This document shows, one piece after another, positions 46,377 through 55,353 of a stretch of 64,000 nucleotides of DNA (the first letter of the stretch is position 1; each line of letters starts with the position of its first letter). The notes under the pieces were generated by a model. It searched no databases and was not told the DNA's origin. It saw only the letters and a list, made by a program, of their open reading frames with translations. This DNA is from Variovorax sp. OAS795 (lineage in GTDB: Bacteria > Pseudomonadota > Gammaproteobacteria > Burkholderiales > Burkholderiaceae_C). The stretch is taken from assembly GCF_040546685.1 (NCBI RefSeq), contig NZ_JBEPOH010000001.1:4092001-4156000 (forward strand). The letters are read 5' to 3'. A program made the position numbers and the translations under genes.

Positions 46377-46757
46377 ATGAGCGTGCAGGCCCTGCGCTCG
46401 TCCTTCGGCAGCAACTGCCACTGGTGCGGGTTGCCGATGGACTTCGCGGAACCTCGCAGCACGCCCGAGTCGGCCACCATCGAGCACCTGAACGATTCGA
46501 CGCTGGGCGGCGTGCGCAAGCAGAAGCACCGGCGCCTGGCCCACGCGGTCTGCAACCAGGCCCGCAACGAGTTCAAGCTGCAGGCCGAGCGCGGCTTCCA
46601 GCGCTGGATCGCCGAGCGCGTCGAGGCCGGCCTCGTCCACGCTTCGGGCCCTCTGGTCACGCCGGCCGGGACGAGCCCCGCACCACCAGTTGTCCCGGCA
46701 GCAACAGTTGCCGCGGCGGCGCATCCAGCCCCTGCAGCCGTTCGATCAGGCAGTTAG
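46377..46757 (+). CDS. HNH-nuclease-like small protein
   Basis: The predicted product is 126 residues. NCHWCGLPM supplies a CxxC pair, ATIEHLNDSTLGG the central His, and LAHAVCNQARNEFK the last His/Cys/Asn, in the order of an HNH or treble-clef nuclease. The last 35 residues are Ala/Pro-rich and lie in the 101-bp stretch that overlaps the convergent ptxS gene, so they may be non-essential. It begins 25 nt after RidA. Nuclease activity is inferred from the motif only; a zinc-binding structural role is the alternative. Confidence 0.7.
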   Translation: MSVQALRSSFGSNCHWCGLPMDFAEPRSTPESATIEHLNDSTLGGVRKQKHRRLAHAVCNQARNEFKLQAERGFQRWIAERVEAGLVHASGPLVTPAGTSPAPPVVPAATVAAAAHPAPAAVRSGS

Positions 46758-47682
46758 CGGCCGAGCGGCCGATGGCATCGGTCGGCTGCGCCACGGTGCT
46801 GAGGCCGGGGCCGATCAGCGAGGCCCATTCGGGATCGTCGAAACCGACGAATCCCAGGTCATGCCCGAACTGCCAGCCCAGCCGCGCCATCGATTGCGCG
46901 ACGCGCAGCGTGACGACCGCATTGCCGGCCACCACCGCGGCGCGGCGCCCTCGCTTCGCGCGCTGCCGCAGCGCACGCAAGGCTTCGTCGAGCGCATCGC
47001 CGCCGGCCTCGACACTCTCGAACACCTCGCCCGACACGCGCGGCTCATGCGCCGCCACGCAAGCCCCGAAGGCGGCCGTGCGTTCGCGCCGCGAGCTCAC
47101 GCCCTTCTGCGGCTCGGTCACGTAGAGCAGCTCGCGAAAGCCGCCTTCGACCAGGTGGCCGCAGGTGTCGCGCATGGCCGAGTGGTTGTCGAGCGCGACG
47201 AAGTCGGTGTGCATGCCGGCATGGCGGCGATCGACCAGCACCGCGGGCTTGCCGTGCAGCGTGACCGCGTCGACCACGTTGCTGCCGCGTCCCAGCGTGT
47301 TGAGGATGAAGCCATCGACCTGGTAGCCCGCGAGCGCATCGATGGCCTCGCGCTCGCGTTCGCTCTCGTTGCCGAGGTTGAACAGCATCACCAGGTAGCC
47401 GGCGTCCTGGCAGGCCTTCTCGGCCCCGCGCAGCACCGCCACCGAATAGGGATTGGTGATGTCCGCCACGATCAGGCCGATGAGCCGCGAGCGCCCGCGG
47501 CTCAGCGCCTGCGCCATCGGACTCGGGGTGTAGGCCAGCTTGGCGATGGCCGCCTCCACGCGCGCCGCGATGTCGCGGCTCAGGAGCCGGTCGCGGTGGT
47601 TGAGGAAGCGCGAGACGGTGGCCTTGGAGACGCCTGCGGCCTCGGCGACATCGGCGATGGTGGCGCGGCCGCTCGGGTTCAT
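46657..47682 (-). CDS. ptxS: LacI-family repressor of 2-ketogluconate utilisation (PtxS-like)
   Basis: A 341-residue LacI-type regulator. The N-terminal helix-turn-helix TIADVAEAAGVSKATVSRFLN (residues 8-28) and hinge SPMAQALSRGRSRLIGLIVADITNPY are typical; the periplasmic-binding-like effector domain follows. Context makes the PtxS assignment strong: it lies beside kguE-kguK-kguD homologues, and the operon promoter at 53557-53570 carries TGAAACCGGTTTCA, the palindrome reported for Pseudomonas PtxS. 2-Ketogluconate would then be the inducer. The gene is on the same strand 124 nt after kguD, and its 3' end overlaps the convergent HNH gene by 101 bp. Confidence 0.82.
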   Translation of the reverse strand: MNPSGRATIADVAEAAGVSKATVSRFLNHRDRLLSRDIAARVEAAIAKLAYTPSPMAQALSRGRSRLIGLIVADITNPYSVAVLRGAEKACQDAGYLVMLFNLGNESEREREAIDALAGYQVDGFILNTLGRGSNVVDAVTLHGKPAVLVDRRHAGMHTDFVALDNHSAMRDTCGHLVEGGFRELLYVTEPQKGVSSRRERTAAFGACVAAHEPRVSGEVFESVEAGGDALDEALRALRQRAKRGRRAAVVAGNAVVTLRVAQSMARLGWQFGHDLGFVGFDDPEWASLIGPGLSTVAQPTDAIGRSAANCLIERLQGLDAPPRQLLLPGQLVVRGSSRPA

Positions 47683-47691
47683 GGATTTGCT

Positions 47692-47788
47692 CCTTCCCCC
47701 TCCGGGGGAAGGCTGGGATGGGGGCAGGCAGAGCGCCCAATGGATACGCCGCTTGCCCCCACCCCTGCCCTCCCCCGGAAGGGGAGGG
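47692..47788. repeat. inverted pair of C/G-rich intergenic repeats between kguD and ptxS
   Basis: Two 38-nt units (47692-47729 and 47751-47788) are near-perfect reverse complements, differing at about seven positions. Each also contains a small hairpin (CCCCC-TCC-GGGGG type). The transcript of this gap would fold into one long stem. It may insulate ptxS from the kgu operon, or terminate it partially. The family is common in Comamonadaceae intergenic DNA. Confidence 0.7.
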
Positions 47789-47806
47789 AGAAAATCCTCG
47801 GGCCTG

Positions 47807-48790
47807 TCATGCAGCTGCCGTATCGTACGCCGCCGTCGGCGTCTCGCCAGCCAGCACCTGCAGCAGATTCGTCGTCGCCAGCTCTGCCATGGCATGCCGC
47901 GTCTCATGGGTGGCCGAGCCGATGTGCGGCAGCGGCGTCACGCGCGGATGGGTGCGCAGGGGCGAATCGGCGGGCAGCGGCTCCTTCGCGAACACGTCCA
48001 GGCCCGCGGCGCGCAGCGTGCCGTGGTCCAGGGCGTGCAGCAGGGCCGCTTCGTCCACCGTGGCGCCGCGGCCGCCGTTGATGAACGCGGCCCCGGCCTT
48101 CATGCGCGCGAAGAAGGCAGCGTCGATCATGCCGCGGGTCGCGTCGGTCAGGGGCAGCATCGCCAGCACGATGTCCGACCGCGCGAGCAGTGCATCGAGC
48201 GGCGTGTGCGTGGCACGGCCTTGCAGTTCGGGCGCCTGCGCGGCCAGGTCGACGGGCCTTCGCGAGTGATAGAGCACCGGCATGCCGAAGCCGAGCGCAG
48301 CGCGGCGTGCCACGGCCTGGCCGATGCGGCCGAAGCCCAGGATGCCCAGCGTCTTGCCATGCACGTCGGTGCCGAAGAGCTCATCGCCGATGTTCTTCGT
48401 CCAGCGGCCTTCGCGCACGAGGTTCGAAAGCTCGACCACGCGTCGCTGCGTGGCCATCAGGATCGCGAACACCGTGTCGGCCACGGTTTCGGTCAGCACG
48501 TCGGGCGTGTGGCACAGCACGATGCCGCGCTTGTGCAGTTCCGCCAGTGCGTAGTTGTCGACGCCGACCGAGATGCTGGAGATCACCTCGAGCGCAGGCG
48601 CCGCGTCCAGCAGCGCGGCATCGACCGTGTGGCTTGCGCCAATCAGGCCGTTCGCCGTGCCGAGCGCAGCGGCAAAAGCCTCGGGCTCCTTGCGCGGATC
48701 GGCGACGGTGACATGGTGCGCGGCCTGGAGGCGCGCCAGCTGGTCCTCGGGCAAGGGCCGGAAGACGAGCACGTTCTTTTTAGTCGTCAT
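47807..48790 (-). CDS. kguD: 2-keto-gluconate-6-phosphate / 2-ketoaldonate reductase (D-isomer 2-hydroxyacid dehydrogenase)
   Basis: A 327-residue protein. The NAD(P)-binding motif GILGFGRIGQAVARRAALGFGMPVLYHSRRP ends with paired Arg, favouring NADPH. Catalytic Arg, Glu and His lie in NGGRGATVDEAAL, LDVFAKEPLP and LPHIGSATHETR. The N-terminal SSISVGVDNYALAELHKRGI and NTPDVLTE-like HTPDVLTETVAD blocks fit the KguD/GhrB subfamily. In the kgu pathway it reduces 2-keto-6-phosphogluconate to 6-phosphogluconate, feeding the Entner-Doudoroff route. It sits 2 nt after kguK. Confidence 0.87.
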   Translation of the reverse strand: MTTKKNVLVFRPLPEDQLARLQAAHHVTVADPRKEPEAFAAALGTANGLIGASHTVDAALLDAAPALEVISSISVGVDNYALAELHKRGIVLCHTPDVLTETVADTVFAILMATQRRVVELSNLVREGRWTKNIGDELFGTDVHGKTLGILGFGRIGQAVARRAALGFGMPVLYHSRRPVDLAAQAPELQGRATHTPLDALLARSDIVLAMLPLTDATRGMIDAAFFARMKAGAAFINGGRGATVDEAALLHALDHGTLRAAGLDVFAKEPLPADSPLRTHPRVTPLPHIGSATHETRHAMAELATTNLLQVLAGETPTAAYDTAAA

Positions 48791-48792
48791 GG

Positions 48793-49746
48793 TCAGAGTC
48801 CTGCTTCTTCAAGTTGTGCGCGGGTGGGCAGCCCTTCAGTGTCACCCAATACCTGCACCGCGCGTGCGCCGATCCAGGCGCCGCGGCGCACCGCCTCGGG
48901 CACGCTCCGGCCTTCGAGCAGGGCGCTCACCACGCCGGCCGCGAAGCCATCGCCCGCACCCACGGTGTCGATCACTTCCTTCACCGGGAAGCCTTCGACG
49001 CGGCCGGTGCCGGCCACGTCGCTGTCGTAGTAGGCGCCTTCGGCGCCGAGCTTGACGACCACCAGCTTCGCACCGCGCTCGCGATAGAAGCGCGCCACAT
49101 CCTCGGGCCGGCTGTGGCCCGTGAGCAGCAGGCCTTCCTCGATGCCGGGCAGCACCCAGTCGGCGCGCGAGGCCAGCTCGTTGACCCAGTGGCGCATCGT
49201 GTCGGTCGAAGGCCACAACGTCGGCCGAAGGTTGGTGTCGAACGAGATCGTGCGGCCGGCCGCGCGCATCACGTCCATGCTCTTGAGCGCGGCCTGCAGG
49301 CTGGTGTCCGAGATGGCCGCGAACACGCCCGTGGCATGCAGGTGCCGCGCCGAGCGCAGCCAGGCCTCATCGACGTCGGCCGGGCCCATCTGGCTCGCAG
49401 CCGAGCCCTTGCGGTGGTATTCGACGGGCGGGTCGCTGCCGTCGGTGACGCGGCCCTTGAACTGGAAACCCGTGCGCTGCGCCGGATCGCAGATGACGTG
49501 CGAGCAATCGATGCCCTCGGCCCTCATGGCGGCGATGAGATAGCGTCCCATCGAGTCGGTGCCGAGCCGGCTGGCCCAGCCCACCTGGAGCCCCAGGCGT
49601 GCCAGGCCGATGGCCACGTTGGTCTCGGCGCCGGCCGTGCGCTTGTGGAACGACTCTGCGTCCTCCAGCGGACCGGGCCGGTCGGCCACCAGCAGCAGCA
49701 TGGCTTCGCCGAACAGCGCGACATCGAAAGCGGTGGGTTCTGTCAT
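48793..49746 (-). CDS. kguK: 2-ketogluconate kinase (PfkB family)
   Basis: A 317-residue PfkB sugar kinase. FKHRTAGAETN-type substrate motif appears as FHKRTAGAETNVAIGLARLG (residues about 33-52). The second PfkB signature DTVGAGDGFAAGVVSALLEG holds the catalytic Asp and the anion hole. VVVKLGAEGAYY precedes it. KDG kinases look very similar; the neighbouring KguE, KguD and PtxS homologues make 2-ketogluconate the better substrate. It phosphorylates 2-ketogluconate for the KguD reaction. The gap to kguE is 14 nt. Confidence 0.85.
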   Translation of the reverse strand: MTEPTAFDVALFGEAMLLLVADRPGPLEDAESFHKRTAGAETNVAIGLARLGLQVGWASRLGTDSMGRYLIAAMRAEGIDCSHVICDPAQRTGFQFKGRVTDGSDPPVEYHRKGSAASQMGPADVDEAWLRSARHLHATGVFAAISDTSLQAALKSMDVMRAAGRTISFDTNLRPTLWPSTDTMRHWVNELASRADWVLPGIEEGLLLTGHSRPEDVARFYRERGAKLVVVKLGAEGAYYDSDVAGTGRVEGFPVKEVIDTVGAGDGFAAGVVSALLEGRSVPEAVRRGAWIGARAVQVLGDTEGLPTRAQLEEAGL

Positions 49747-49760
49747 GTGTGTGCTTCTGC

Positions 49761-50504
49761 CTACGCCCGTGCGGCGCGGATGAAATCGATCTGCGTGCGC
49801 GTGACGGCCAGAAGGTCGTCGCCTGCCAGGGGGTATTCGATGGCGTGCGGCACATCGGCGGGCAGTGCGCGCAGCACCGCGCGCCATGGCGCGGCCGAGT
49901 CGCCCAGCGGCACCGCCACCCACTTGCCCGGCAGGCGCTGCACGCCCTTGCAATGCACGTAGCGCACGCGGCGGCCCAGCGCCTGTGCAGCTTGCAACGG
50001 GCACTCGCCGACCCAGTGCCAGTTGCCCATGTCGAAGGTCATGCCCAGCTCGACGCCCGCGCGGTCGGACGCGTCGAAGAAGGCCTGCAGCGCGGGCAGC
50101 GTACCGGCGCGCACCGTCTGGTCGTTCTCGATCAGCAGCTCGACTCGCGTCTCGGCCAATTGCACCTTGAGGCCCCAGAGCGAGCCGTGCGAAGAAGGCT
50201 GGAAATCGCCGATGGACATCTTGAGCCGCTTCGCACCGACGCGCGTTGCTGCGGCGATGCCGCGCTTGAGCGCCGCGCCGTCGAGCCAGCCGCCTTCGGC
50301 CCAGAGGCCTTCGGGGCTGGAGTACACGGAAGCGAGACCGTTCAACGCAGGCAGTTCGGCATCCGCATCGCGCAGCATCTCGCCACGCACTTCAACGGAA
50401 TCGGCGCCCGCTGCCGATGCCAGCCGCGCGCACCAGAGCTGGCCGTGCCGCCCCACCTCGGCCGCGCCGAAGGACGACAGAGAAATCAGAACGGAAAAGG
50501 ACAT
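49761..50504 (-). CDS. kguE: KguE-like xylose-isomerase-type TIM barrel protein
   Basis: The product is 247 residues, opening with VLISLSSFGAAEVGRHGQLWCARLASAAGADSVEVRGEML, the KguE-like start. TIM-barrel metal and base positions are suggested by LLIENDQTVRAG, MTFDMGNWHWVG and RYVHCKGVQ. Family enzymes are sugar epimerases/isomerases using a divalent metal, and the exact reaction of KguE in 2-ketogluconate catabolism is not settled. The start lies directly against the stop of the ABC ATPase gene, placing catabolic and transport genes in one transcript. Confidence 0.83.
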   Translation of the reverse strand: MSFSVLISLSSFGAAEVGRHGQLWCARLASAAGADSVEVRGEMLRDADAELPALNGLASVYSSPEGLWAEGGWLDGAALKRGIAAATRVGAKRLKMSIGDFQPSSHGSLWGLKVQLAETRVELLIENDQTVRAGTLPALQAFFDASDRAGVELGMTFDMGNWHWVGECPLQAAQALGRRVRYVHCKGVQRLPGKWVAVPLGDSAAPWRAVLRALPADVPHAIEYPLAGDDLLAVTRTQIDFIRAARA

Positions 50505-51260
<756 letters not shown>

Positions 51261-51295
51261 GCCAGGATTCCTTGTTCGTCTTCAGCCTCGGCGGC

Positions 51296-52093
51296 TCACT
51301 GCATCTTCGGCAGGTCGGCCTGCAGCCACTTCTGGTAGAGCTTGTTCAGCTCGCCGTTGGCGGTGTTCCTGGCAACGAACTCGTTGACCGCCTTGTGCAG
51401 CTCGTCCTGGCCCGGGCGCATCGCGATGCCCATGGATTGCTGCACCAGCGTGAACTTGTTTTCGTAGGTGCCGGCGGGCACGCGCTTGGCGATCTGCGCG
51501 GCCACGGTCACCGAGCAGCCGATGGCATCGACCTGGCCCGAGATCAGCGCCTGCATGGCCGAGGCGTCGTCGTCGAAGCGGCGGATCTCGGTGCCTTCGG
51601 GCGCGGCCTTGGTCACGGCCACGTCCTGCGTGGAGGCGCGTGCCACGCCCACGCGCAGGCCCTTCAGGTCGGCTGCGGCCTTGATGGGCGTCTTGGTGGC
51701 GCCGTACAGCACGATGGTGGCGGCCGCGTAGGGCTGCGAGAACTGCACCTGCTTGGCGCGCTCGGGCGTGATGGCAAGCGATGCGACCAGCAGGTCGACC
51801 TTGTTGGTCAGCAGGAAGGGAATGCGGTTCGGGCCGGTCACCGGCACGATGTTGGCCTTGACGCCCCATTCCTTGGCCAGCAGCTTGGCCACGTCGGCGT
51901 CGTAGCCGTCGGGCTGGTTCTGCGCATTGGTGGTGCCGTAGGGCGGAAAGTCAACCAGCATGCCGATGGTGATCTCGCCCTTCTTCTTGATGTCGGCCAC
52001 GGACTGTGCCGAGGCGAAAGGTGCGAACACGGTGAGCGCGGCGCCAAGGCCGAGGGCTGCGAGCGCAGCGCGGCGGGTGGGGGTACGGGTCAT
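51296..52093 (-). CDS. ABC transporter periplasmic substrate-binding protein, family 3
   Basis: A 265-residue protein from MTRTPTRRAALAALGLGAALTVF, a twin-arginine-like or Sec signal with RR at residues 7-8, cleaved near FASAQS. GEITIGMLVDFPPYG, YDADVAKLLAKEWG and LLVASLAITPERAKQVQFSQPY are the family-3 blocks. The usual ligands are polar amino acids, but the kgu context suggests a sugar acid. The Arg that binds the ligand carboxylate in this family would suit 2-ketogluconate too. It is followed by the ATPase gene at 35 nt. Confidence 0.87.
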   Translation of the reverse strand: MTRTPTRRAALAALGLGAALTVFAPFASAQSVADIKKKGEITIGMLVDFPPYGTTNAQNQPDGYDADVAKLLAKEWGVKANIVPVTGPNRIPFLLTNKVDLLVASLAITPERAKQVQFSQPYAAATIVLYGATKTPIKAAADLKGLRVGVARASTQDVAVTKAAPEGTEIRRFDDDASAMQALISGQVDAIGCSVTVAAQIAKRVPAGTYENKFTLVQQSMGIAMRPGQDELHKAVNEFVARNTANGELNKLYQKWLQADLPKMQ

Positions 52094-52142
52094 GGGATGT
52101 GTCTCCTGGAAATGAAGGGATGCGACGAAGAAGAAAAGGTAA

Positions 52143-52796
52143 TCAACGGGCCAGGGCCTGGGCGCGCCTGCGCTCCATGCGGGCCGCGAGCAATGAGAGC
52201 GGCCAGCAGATCGCGAAGTAGATGGCGGCCACCACCGAGAACACGACCAGCGGCTGGAAAGTGGCGTTGTTGATGATCTGGCCCGCGCGGGTGACTTCGG
52301 TGAAGCCGATGATGGCCGCGAGCGACGTGCCCTTGATGATCTGCACCAGGTAGCCCACCGTGGGCGCAAGCGCGATCTTGAAGGCCTGCGGCAGCACCAC
52401 GTCGCGCATGCGTGCGCTGTAGCCGAGGCTCAGCGCCTCGGCGGCTTCCCACTGGCCGCGCGGAATGGCCTGGATGCAGCCGCGCCAGATCTCGCCCAGG
52501 AAGGCCGCGCTGTTGAGCACCAGTGCCACGCCCGCGGCGATCCAGGGGTTGATGTCCAGCCCCAGCACCGGCGCGCCGAAGAAGATCAGGAACAGCTGCA
52601 GCAGCAGCGGCGTGCCCTGGAAGACCTGGATGAACACCGTCGACACGGTGCGCGCCCAGCCCGATTCGGAGGTGCGCATGAGCGCGATCGCCAGCCCCAG
52701 GATGGCGCCGCCGACGAAGGCGATGGCCGACAGAGCGAGCGTCCACTTGGCCGCTTCGAGGATGAAGAGAAATTCGGGAAAGCCGAAAGTGCGCAT
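52143..52796 (-). CDS. amino acid-type ABC transporter permease (second)
   Basis: A 217-residue HisM/GlnP-type permease. EFLFILEAAKWTLALSAIAFVGGAILG opens the first helix and VFQGTPLLLQLFLIFFG is the signature after the second. The EAA loop is SIPRGQWEAAEALSLGYSARM-like (AIPRGQWEAAEALSLG...LPQAFKIALAP). It pairs with the permease at 52823-53494, which is 26 nt upstream. Both are short single-domain permeases of the polar-amino-acid family. Confidence 0.88.
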   Translation of the reverse strand: MRTFGFPEFLFILEAAKWTLALSAIAFVGGAILGLAIALMRTSESGWARTVSTVFIQVFQGTPLLLQLFLIFFGAPVLGLDINPWIAAGVALVLNSAAFLGEIWRGCIQAIPRGQWEAAEALSLGYSARMRDVVLPQAFKIALAPTVGYLVQIIKGTSLAAIIGFTEVTRAGQIINNATFQPLVVFSVVAAIYFAICWPLSLLAARMERRRAQALAR

Positions 52797-52822
52797 GATG
52801 GTTTGTGCTCCGTGCGTGCCTG

Positions 52823-53494
52823 CTAGCGGCGATCCGGGTAGTTGAGCGTGCGCTTGTAGATGAGCTTGAACAGCGCCGAGAAAGCCAGCGCCAGCGCCAG
52901 GTAGATGGCAGCGACCACGATGTAGATCTCGAAACTGCGGAAGGTCTGCGACTGCAGGTTGGCGGCCACCGACGTCAGGTCGTCGGCCGAGATGACCGAC
53001 ACCACGGCCGAGCTCAGCATCAGCAAGATGAATTGGCTCGTGAGCGCCGGGTAGATGGCCTTGAGCGCGGGCTTGATGATCACGAAGCGGAAGATCTCCC
53101 AGGGCTTGAGGTTCAGCGCCCTGCCCGCCTCGATCTGCCCCTTGGGAATGGACTCGATGCCGGCACGGATGATCTCGGTCGCGTAGGCGCCGAGGTTCAC
53201 CACCATGGCCACCAGCGCCGCAGTTTGCGGGGACCAGCGCAGGCCGATGGCCGGCAGTGCGAAGAAGAAGAAGAACAGCTGGACCAGGAACGGCGTGTTG
53301 CGGATCACCTCGATGTACGCATTGACGATGAAGCGCAGCCACCCCGGGCCCGAGGTCTTGCCCCAGGCACAGAAGATGGCAACCACCAGGCCGATCAGCG
53401 TGGCGGACAGCGAGAGCTGGACCGTGATCCACGTGCCCTTGAGCAGCAGCGGCCAGGCAGCGAACACGGCGTCGAATTGGAACTGGTAATTCAT
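52823..53494 (-). CDS. amino acid-type ABC transporter permease (first), head of kgu operon
   Basis: A 223-residue permease starting MNYQFQFDAVFAAWPLLLKGTW. VIRNTPFLVQLFFFFFALP is the family signature, and ESIPKGQIEAGRALNLKPWEIFRFVIIKPALKAI the EAA loop. It is the first gene of a seven-gene minus-strand operon (two permeases, binding protein, ATPase, kguE, kguK, kguD). The promoter and a perfect PtxS-type operator lie 63-76 nt upstream of its ATG. Confidence 0.88.
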   Translation of the reverse strand: MNYQFQFDAVFAAWPLLLKGTWITVQLSLSATLIGLVVAIFCAWGKTSGPGWLRFIVNAYIEVIRNTPFLVQLFFFFFALPAIGLRWSPQTAALVAMVVNLGAYATEIIRAGIESIPKGQIEAGRALNLKPWEIFRFVIIKPALKAIYPALTSQFILLMLSSAVVSVISADDLTSVAANLQSQTFRSFEIYIVVAAIYLALALAFSALFKLIYKRTLNYPDRR

Positions 53495-53556
53495 GGGTGC
53501 GGCAAAACACGGCGAAGGGCCGCGCACATGCCTGAAAGCAATGCTTGCAGCTTATA

Positions 53557-53570
53557 TGAAACCGGTTTCA
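53557..53570 (-). promoter_or_regulatory. PtxS-type operator overlapping the kgu operon promoter
   Basis: The sequence is TGAAACCGGTTTCA, a perfect 14-bp palindrome with the central CG typical of LacI-family sites and identical to the motif reported for Pseudomonas PtxS. On the minus strand it is followed directly by TATAAG, a likely -10, so a bound repressor would block RNA polymerase. A second perfect inverted repeat, CCTAGGG-ATTG-CCCTAGG (53577-53594), lies just upstream. Confidence 0.85.
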
Positions 53571-53631
53571 GGAAAACCTAGGGATTGCCCTAGGTCAGCC
53601 TTTCGGCCGCCCTTCTGCCTACACTGGCGCG

Positions 53632-55353
53632 ATGCTGAATACACCCGAGGTCCCCCTTCGCGCAGCGCCGGGCGCATCCCTGGCGGGTGTGGCCGCGGCA
53701 CCGGCCGTGCAGCATTTCAGGCAGGCCCTGCTCTGGCCCCTGCGGCTCATGCCCGCCGCGGATGCCAAGCCCGCGCACCACGGCCCATGGCATGTGCTGC
53801 GCGAGATGGGCGATGCCTCGCCCTGGCGCGAAGAGATCGACGAATACACCGGCGACAGCAGCCGCTTCCACGAGCGGCACTACAACGAGTTCGTGAGCTT
53901 CCTGCCCTATGTGCAGCGCTTTCTCTACGGCGAGGGCCGCTCCCGCAGCAAGGACGGCGCGGCAACAGGCAGCGACCGCGACTCGCCGATGCGCGTCTTC
54001 CGCCGCCACGACATCGCGGCGGTGCGCGTGGTCGCGCAGGCCGGCGATGCGCCCATCACGCTCGACGTGGTGCATTGCGACCTGTACTTCTTCTTCGACA
54101 TCGACGTGGTGCTGCTGAACCTGGAGGTGGGCGCCGACCACCTGAGCCTCGCGCAGGCGCAAGACCTGCTCTATCGCTTCGGCCGCGCCTATCCGGCCGG
54201 TTGGGACACCGGGGGCAGCGCGCTGCATTGCATGGCCAGCGTCGAGTGGCTGGCCCCGGACGGCAGCGTGCTGGCGCGTTCGGATGCGCAGCAGCGCGAG
54301 GCCTTCCTCTCGCACGTGGCGCAGCACCGCGCGCCGCGCATTTCGGCCCACTGGGCCTACCTGATGCAGCCGCTGGTGAGCGACCATTCCGACGACCCCG
54401 GCGTGCTGCGCTACCGGCAGATCGAGTACTACCGCATGCCGGTGATGGCCTACCTTTCGCTCGACGATCCCAAGCGCCTTTCGCGCAACGACTTCATCCG
54501 GCTCGGGCTGGTCACCGGCGCCGCCGAGGCCGACGCGGCGCAGCATGCGCACCTGCCCTATGCCGACGAACATCTGGCCGACTTCGAGCATCGCTATTGC
54601 TACGACCGCTTCTGGGTCGATGCGGGCGCGGCGCCGAACACGCGCTATCTCTGCAACGGCCATGCACTCATCGTGGTGGGCGATGCGCGCTCCGAATTCT
54701 TCTGCTGCCGCGACCGCGGCGTGCTCGCGCAGTTCAGGCACCAGCACTTCCTGCTGTTCCTGATCGCGCATTTCCAGAAGGCTTCGCTCCTGATGTTCTC
54801 GGACCAGCTGGTGGAGGCTTTGGAGCGCCTCGACATCCGCAGCACGCCGAGCGTGAAGCAGTTCAAGCGAGCGATCCGCGCGAGCTTCGAGCGCTTCCTG
54901 CGCTTCACGCACCGCTACTGGTTCCACGAGATCTCGGAGCAGGCGCAGGTGCGTGCGCTCTCCCACATGTGCGCCAGGCACCTCGGGCTCGATCCGCTCT
55001 ACGACGAGGTCAAGGCGCGCATCGCCGACATGAACACCTACCTCGATGCGGACAGCCTGCGCCGACAGGCCAGCACCGTGGTGCGGCTCACGGTGGTCAC
55101 GCTGTTCGGGCTGATCGGCACCGTGACGACGGGCTTCCTCGGCATGAACCTGCTGGCCGAGGCCGAGGCGCCGCTGTGGCGCAAGGCGCTCTGGTTCGGC
55201 GTGGTGTTCATCTTCACGACCTGGCTCACCATCTACACCATGGTGAAGTCGCAGCGGCTGTCCGACTTCATCGATGCGCTCTCGAACGACCGGCTGAGCT
55301 TGCGGGGCAAGCTGGCCGCGCTGGCGCGCGTGTGGCGGCCGGGCGCCGACTGA
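53632..55353 (+). CDS. CorA-like divalent cation transporter with long N-terminal domain
   Basis: A 573-residue protein, clearly longer than the 320-370 residues of classical CorA. The C-terminal membrane part has two helices with the family motif: VVRLTVVTLFGLIGTVTTGFLGMN, then KALWFGVVFIFTTWLTIYTM. The GMN motif is intact. The large soluble N-terminal part (residues about 1-490) is acidic and aromatic-rich, with DVVHCDLYFFFDIDVVLLNLEV and helices before the membrane. Magnesium or another divalent ion is the probable substrate. It is divergent from the kgu operon and converges on the next gene with 4 nt between stops. Confidence 0.82.
   Translation: MLNTPEVPLRAAPGASLAGVAAAPAVQHFRQALLWPLRLMPAADAKPAHHGPWHVLREMGDASPWREEIDEYTGDSSRFHERHYNEFVSFLPYVQRFLYGEGRSRSKDGAATGSDRDSPMRVFRRHDIAAVRVVAQAGDAPITLDVVHCDLYFFFDIDVVLLNLEVGADHLSLAQAQDLLYRFGRAYPAGWDTGGSALHCMASVEWLAPDGSVLARSDAQQREAFLSHVAQHRAPRISAHWAYLMQPLVSDHSDDPGVLRYRQIEYYRMPVMAYLSLDDPKRLSRNDFIRLGLVTGAAEADAAQHAHLPYADEHLADFEHRYCYDRFWVDAGAAPNTRYLCNGHALIVVGDARSEFFCCRDRGVLAQFRHQHFLLFLIAHFQKASLLMFSDQLVEALERLDIRSTPSVKQFKRAIRASFERFLRFTHRYWFHEISEQAQVRALSHMCARHLGLDPLYDEVKARIADMNTYLDADSLRRQASTVVRLTVVTLFGLIGTVTTGFLGMNLLAEAEAPLWRKALWFGVVFIFTTWLTIYTMVKSQRLSDFIDALSNDRLSLRGKLAALARVWRPGAD

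Follow-up and report, generated by a model that had tools for sequence, protein, structure and literature searches.

The closest described system to the locus analysed here is the kgu operon of Pseudomonas for 2-ketogluconate (ptxS, kguE-kguK-kguT-kguD), in which KguT is a pump of the major facilitator superfamily (MFS). In P. plecoglossicida, the deletion of kguT is reported to nearly abolish the use of 2-ketogluconate, which indicates that this operon needs its importer, while the deletion of kguE slows it (PMC11678583; publications given by PMC number with reported results are cited from excerpts). The release of the repressor PtxS from DNA by its effector 2-ketogluconate has likewise been demonstrated for Pseudomonas (PMC11678583, PMC5902321). 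The second relevant group are the amino-acid importers of the PAAT/HAAT type (GlnHPQ, HisJQMP), which combine a TIGR01726 permease pair, a family-3 binding protein and a GlnQ-like ATPase. Features of both are found together in a stretch of 64,000 nucleotides from Variovorax sp. OAS795 (contig NZ_JBEPOH010000001.1, positions 4,092,001 to 4,156,000), referred to as the window. KguE, KguK, KguD, PtxS and an identical 14-bp operator are shared with Pseudomonas, but a four-gene ATP-binding cassette (ABC) importer with all the PAAT/HAAT components stands at the head of the operon in place of KguT. Compared with the PAAT/HAAT importers, its binding protein lacks the signature Asp and its genes lie within a sugar-acid operon. 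Judged from sequence comparison, the operon very probably serves to import and degrade 2-ketogluconate, with the ABC importer carrying this compound as a non-orthologous replacement of KguT.

The genome that hosts the window comprises 6.09 Mb in two contigs with a completeness score of 100%. On the minus strand, the genes are arranged in the order permease-permease-binding protein-ATPase-kguE-kguK-kguD-ptxS, preceded by an exact TGAAACCGGTTTCA (Table 1); the position of ptxS at the tail, shared with most named Variovorax and Acidovorax loci, differs from Pseudomonas. The first seven genes, up to kguD, are separated by gaps of 0-49 bases, which speaks for a single transcript, and 124 bases lie between kguD and ptxS. 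Orthologues of KguK and KguD together with a PtxS-type repressor and KguE place the locus among the kgu operons. The sole relative of KguE in the PDB at E<=0.01 is 1yx1 (PA2260, E 8.5e-43), and sequence identity is 34-42% to KguE of KguT loci, 46-56% between the window KguD and KguD adjoining KguT, and 41-44% between the window PtxS and PtxS of Pseudomonas-type KguT loci; no NCBIfam equivalog reached its cut-off for PtxS in the family-model scan. By sequence, the four genes at the head qualify as a PAAT importer (TIGR01726 permeases, PF00497 binding protein, GlnQ-like ATPase). The operon has no KguT, and no orthologue was found elsewhere in the genome, where the best MFS match to a KguT query reached 32%; the locus is therefore a kgu operon with another importer. 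A sequence-only reading of the window had listed KguE, KguK, KguD and a PtxS-like LacI repressor, had placed two polar-amino-acid permeases, a family-3 binding protein and a GlnQ-like ATPase at the head, and had noted that KguT was missing, all of which agrees with the family models and coordinates.

To compare transporters, 161 kgu loci were typed, with type A denoting an ABC importer like that of the window and type B a relative with the order substrate-binding protein-permease-permease-ATPase. This gave 96 loci of type A (five of them cut), 30 of type B, 27 with KguT and eight with none, and no locus carried both an ABC importer and KguT. The set is biased and contains repeats, at least three loci occurring twice (L020/L067, L021/L102 and L045/L204; L and G numbers are our own labels). 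Its 80 named loci, which were the best among 361 matches obtained with a Comamonadaceae alignment of KguE, are weighted towards Variovorax and Acidovorax and consist of 77 type-A loci (three cut) and three without importer. Fourteen Cupriavidus loci were found through the start sequence of kguK, in 14 of 60 genomes of the genus, while the search that led to L303 used its binding protein, so that this locus is type B by construction; in the family of L303, a type-B binding protein (E<=1e-60) occurred in one of 200 sampled genomes. In the family of the window, KguE was present in 18 of 150 sampled genomes. The window and 13 of its 17 relatives have a whole type-A importer, two more are cut by a contig end, L024 has another ABC importer and L035 has none. 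A further family (f7) was represented by 20 of its 23 KguE-bearing genomes (G310, which is L177, was already included, and G858 and G885 were left out), and its 20 loci divide into 13 of type B, five with KguT and two of type A. KguT (PF07690) lies between kguK and kguD in Pseudomonas-like, Enterobacterales-like and Burkholderia-like genomes, where the proteins share 73-100% identity with one or the other of two KguT queries. Type B was found in Herbaspirillum-like genomes, in a second genus of f7, in L024 and in Cupriavidus; such lineage labels of the G genomes were inferred from named homologues (e.g. Herbaspirillum, Cupriavidus). The type-B importer of L177 is 44-54% identical to that of the window. 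The pattern is thus one that reaches across Burkholderiales, beyond the single operon first noticed.

A tree of the combined enzymes KguE, KguK and KguD was constructed from 61 loci using a quick method. The transporter label changes six times on this tree, with a possible minimum of three and an average of 31 in shuffles. Three of the six changes are the three rows without importer, leaving at least three changes of transporter type, and type B occupies two branches far apart, one beside type A and the other beside KguT. The enzymes have therefore been retained through swaps of the importer, the order of the transporters being conjectural. In the binding-protein tree, which includes many type-B homologues of unknown context and carries a long-branch warning, types A and B are sisters (support 95/84) with no sampled outsider between them, and an independent recruitment of the two types is consequently unsupported.

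The importer is also linked to the kinase gene. Among the same 150 family genomes, the type-A permease (E<=1e-80) occurs in 22, kguE in 18 and both in 16 (Fisher p 8e-15, uncorrected for relatedness). In 19 of the 22 genomes kguK adjoins the permease genes, and in the remaining three a contig end cuts or splits the locus; in G061 and G068, permease and kguK are on separate contigs, with the kguK contig starting at the ATPase. Six genomes have the permease without kguE, and kguK is adjacent in five of them, whereas the contig of the sixth ends inside the binding-protein gene. These five ABC-kguK loci retain kguD in three cases and ptxS in four. Since kguK is adjacent even without kguE, the shared unit is the importer plus the 2-ketogluconate kinase. 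The kgu loci L356, L357, L359, L360 and L361 have no kguE, and some of them no kguD or ptxS either; kinase and importer form the constant pair.

In amino-acid binders of this family, Arg holds the alpha-carboxylate and Asp the alpha-amino group of the ligand (R75/D157 in GlnH and R77/D161 in HisJ), and the Asp was present in all five E. coli amino-acid binders compared. Both importer types in kgu operons keep the Arg and lack the Asp. Among the type-A proteins, the Arg is found in 88 of 88 rows and the Asp site is occupied by Ser in 87 and by Pro in one; type B differs in having Pro at this site in all aligned rows. The importer of the window thus does not carry the complete Arg-Asp signature of a functional amino-acid importer.

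The 14-mer ahead of the operon is the published PtxS site of Pseudomonas, as the sequence-only reading had recognised, and the effector of that repressor is 2-ketogluconate (PMC11678583, PMC5902321). One exact copy exists in the 6.09-Mb genome and none of the reversed control. When three mismatches were allowed, the window alone gave two matches with 0.97 expected, so that only the exact copy counts. The LacI fold and the operator in front of the operon identify the window protein as a PtxS repressor. In 88 of 91 loci, the AAACCGGTTT core lies at most 450 bases upstream of the first of the type-A genes; the sequences of the remaining three do not include that stretch. The exact 14-mer is present in 84 of the 91. 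In Cupriavidus type B, a tandem pair of operators is present in 15 of 15 loci, and L024 has two near-exact copies. Eleven repressor N-termini were compared: the eight whose loci have the site carry the helix VSKATVSR or VSKASVSR, the former in the window and the latter in PtxS of Pseudomonas-type KguT loci, and the three whose loci lack it carry SKTSVSR, GKTSISR or GKTSVSR, a pattern which in these eleven rows fits a co-evolution of repressor and operator. Of 88 type-A loci, 53 have a TATA-like sequence after the operator; a consensus scan for sigma-70 promoters gave no site, and the TATAAG hexamer of the window is hence a weak -10 candidate.

A connection to biochemical data is provided by KguK of Cupriavidus necator H16, which was purified and reported to phosphorylate 2-ketogluconate in a study whose introduction names KguT as the importer (PMC6651773). 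With the exception of the non-user JMP134, which is without the kinase gene, Cupriavidus strains reportedly use 2-ketogluconate (PMC2842291). The kguK of the Cupriavidus genome G1157 matches the published H16 forward primer in 22 of 22 positions and the gene-specific end of the reverse primer in 18 of 18, and its 33.7-kDa product would, with the tag, fit the reported 35.7 kDa (PMC6651773). This gene lies in a type-B operon with no KguT within its 17 kb, the only stretch searched. KguK of the window is 68% identical to KguK of G1157, a genome connected to H16 here by primer match.

Several points weigh against a 2-ketogluconate importer. Every family model matched names amino-acid transporters. 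Three Variovorax genomes keep kguE-kguK without the ABC genes, two of them with kguEKD-ptxS and the operator; no orthologue of the ABC binding protein was found elsewhere in these three (best match 34%), and a genome search of one of them, MHTC-1, which like Variovorax sp. Root318D1 lacks the ABC genes, gave no KguT match at E<=1e-10 either. The 14-mer occurs in none of 14 Herbaspirillum-type B loci, and in exact form in eight of 27 KguT loci, being missing from 19, so that the operator is no mark of every kgu operon. Thirteen of 26 paralogous binding proteins with unknown ligand are also without the Asp, for which reason its absence was rejected as a unique mark of the kgu proteins. The genome itself yielded no Gluconate_2-dh3 protein (PF13618) in a search covering only that dehydrogenase type; without it, the substrate must come from outside or via another enzyme. 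H16 KguK also accepts 2-keto-3-deoxygluconate, 2-ketogulonate and 2-keto-3-deoxygulonate (PMC6651773), and the ligand range may therefore be wider. The family scores and the three Variovorax genomes would suit an ordinary amino-acid transporter caught in the operon, with 2-ketogluconate imported by an unrelated protein, which is nevertheless very improbable in view of the adjacency to kguK, interrupted only by contig ends, the mutual exclusion of both ABC types and KguT in the typed loci, the missing Asp in all aligned kgu binding proteins and the lack of a KguT orthologue in the genome. The acceptance of other substrates by KguK, together with a related Herbaspirillum-like importer that adjoins galactarate-dehydratase-like, AraD1-family, SDR and SMP-30 genes, raises the question of whether another sugar acid or several (2-keto-D-gulonate, 2,5-diketogluconate, gluconate, 2-keto-3-deoxygluconate) are carried, with 2-ketogluconate at best one of them. 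We consider this unlikely, as the operator belongs to a repressor known to respond to 2-ketogluconate (PMC11678583, PMC5902321), KguD acts on 2-keto-6-phosphogluconate, and H16 KguK prefers 2-ketogluconate, with a reported kcat/KM of 16,770 per second per molar compared to 7,370 for 2-keto-3-deoxygluconate (PMC6651773). The comparison thus supports the proposal of the sequence-only reading, in which a sugar acid is carried by an ABC importer of the amino-acid type that stands in for KguT, the predicted ligand being 2-ketogluconate or a close 2-ketoaldonate.

For 2-ketogluconate as the ligand, the family-3 binding protein would catch it with the C1 carboxylate on Arg112 and no partner for an alpha-amino group, and the two GlnP/EhuC-like permeases and the GlnQ-like ATPase would use ATP to import it. 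KguK would then phosphorylate it to 2-keto-6-phosphogluconate, which KguD would reduce to 6-phosphogluconate for the Entner-Doudoroff route, while KguE, missing from some such operons, would assist in an unspecified role. PtxS would repress from the single operator until bound by 2-ketogluconate.

The ABC-less Variovorax genomes are natural tests of the importer claim: either they no longer take up 2-ketogluconate, or they have another importer or an internal source of it. In L061, the operator and a leader very like that of the window run straight into kguE; L086 has the operator ahead of kguE, with the ABC genes gone; and in L082 kguD, ptxS and the operator are gone as well. A late insertion of the ABC genes in Variovorax was rejected for L061, which has the window-like leader and nests beside the window on the enzyme tree, so that deletion is likelier. 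Other loci without importer differ in content. L035 (8164-12841) contains kguEKD and operator-like sites without ABC or KguT, followed, as judged by eye, by a shikimate-dehydrogenase-like gene and a TRAP-type binding protein, possibly a third kind of importer; in L303, a shikimate-dehydrogenase-like gene likewise follows kguD. L200, L201 and L202, from one family of the same class, carry kguE and kguD but gave no match to kguK or KguT, and perhaps represent a reductase-only route.

The related importer of the Herbaspirillum-like G310 mentioned above has permeases and ATPase 58-66% identical to type B and a binding protein 44% identical to type A, with Pro at the Asp site. In the binding-protein tree it belongs to a neighbouring group outside A plus B. 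There is about an even chance that types A, B and this galactarate/AraD1-type importer belong to a lineage within the polar-amino-acid ABC family that specialises in sugar acids, in which the Asp was given up, the Arg kept, and the importer repeatedly exchanged with MFS pumps in sugar-acid operons. In L304 (2625-12732), a Herbaspirillum-like sugar-acid cluster comprises LysR, AraD1, ABC importer, galactarate-dehydratase-like, SDR and SMP-30 genes, the importer being related to that of the kgu operons.

Other family-3 binders have unusual ligands, namely opines for NocT/OccJ, deoxyfructosyl-glutamine for SocA and a sulfobetaine for SAR11_1068, all of which carry nitrogen. No title in the literature on these proteins concerns 2-ketogluconate, and no description of an ABC importer for it was recognised in the literature searched, judged mostly from titles and abstract openings. 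Ketogluconate and kgu are not mentioned in the main text of two papers on LacI and Proteobacteria regulons (PMC4052901, PMC5343134), nor is ketogluconate mentioned in PMC9007349. JGI labels the proteins 'polar amino acid transport system substrate-binding protein' or 'permease', and the NCBI name of the permeases is 'amino acid ABC transporter permease'; the NCBI name of the binding proteins is neutral ('transporter substrate-binding domain-containing protein'). Our analysis suggests that the label 'amino acid transporter' is wrong for the importer of the kgu operon. Annotation of Variovorax, Acidovorax, Herbaspirillum and Cupriavidus then likely overlooks sugar-acid uptake and counts too much amino-acid uptake. 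The same probably holds for the production strain C. necator H16; the kinase paper gives KguT as the importer for its genus (PMC6651773). If correct, the assignment would supply the missing importer of 2-ketogluconate catabolism in these bacteria and allow a direct test of how a family-3 pocket moves over from amino-acid to sugar-acid ligands. The combination of an ATP-driven importer with a genome in which no Gluconate_2-dh3 protein was found suggests the scavenging of 2-ketogluconate made by neighbours.

Table 1. Features of the kgu locus in the window, in order of transcription.
Feature	Position	Strand	Evidence
PtxS operator TGAAACCGGTTTCA, palindrome	53557..53570	-	exact; 62 bases before the first start codon
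TATAAG, possible -10 hexamer	53551..53556	-	sequence, directly after the operator; weak
ABC permease 1 (polar-amino-acid type)	52823..53494	-	TIGR01726 101.2 bits (cut-off 42.2), PF00528
ABC permease 2 (polar-amino-acid type)	52143..52796	-	TIGR01726 101.8 bits (cut-off 42.2), PF00528; scanned as 52143-52790
Periplasmic binding protein, SBP family 3	51296..52093	-	PF00497; Arg112 kept, Ser194 where GlnH has Asp157
ABC ATPase, GlnQ-like	50505..51260	-	PF00005; top NCBIfam model GlnQ, score under the model's cut-off
kguE, xylose-isomerase-like TIM barrel	49761..50504	-	PF01261 narrowly passed (31.5 vs 31.1)
kguK, 2-ketogluconate kinase (PfkB)	48793..49746	-	PF00294
kguD, 2-keto-6-phosphogluconate reductase	47807..48790	-	PF02826, PF00389
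ptxS, LacI-family repressor	46657..47682	-	PF00356, PF13377

Some further elements were observed around the operon. The gap between kguD and ptxS contains, at 47693-47787, a GC-rich imperfect repeat pair of the CCTCCCCTTCCGGGGGAGGG type (two matches with at most three mismatches, 0.02 expected). A divergent gene at 53632-55353 shares a 137-base intergenic region with the kgu operon and remains beside the kgu genes in the three ABC-less Variovorax genomes; its product of 573 amino acids has no Pfam match at E<=1e-4 and C-terminal segments that are hydrophobic by eye. An inverted repeat, CTAGGG-N4-CCCTAG, is located at 53578-53593, about eight bases before the operator. In loosened form it occurs in 45 of 91 type-A loci and in two ABC-less loci, mostly from Variovorax. 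In 3.7 Mb of DNA, a total that counts overlapping loci, each of the 24 exact copies falls at the pre-operator position, perhaps as the site of a second regulator, for kgu or for the divergent gene.

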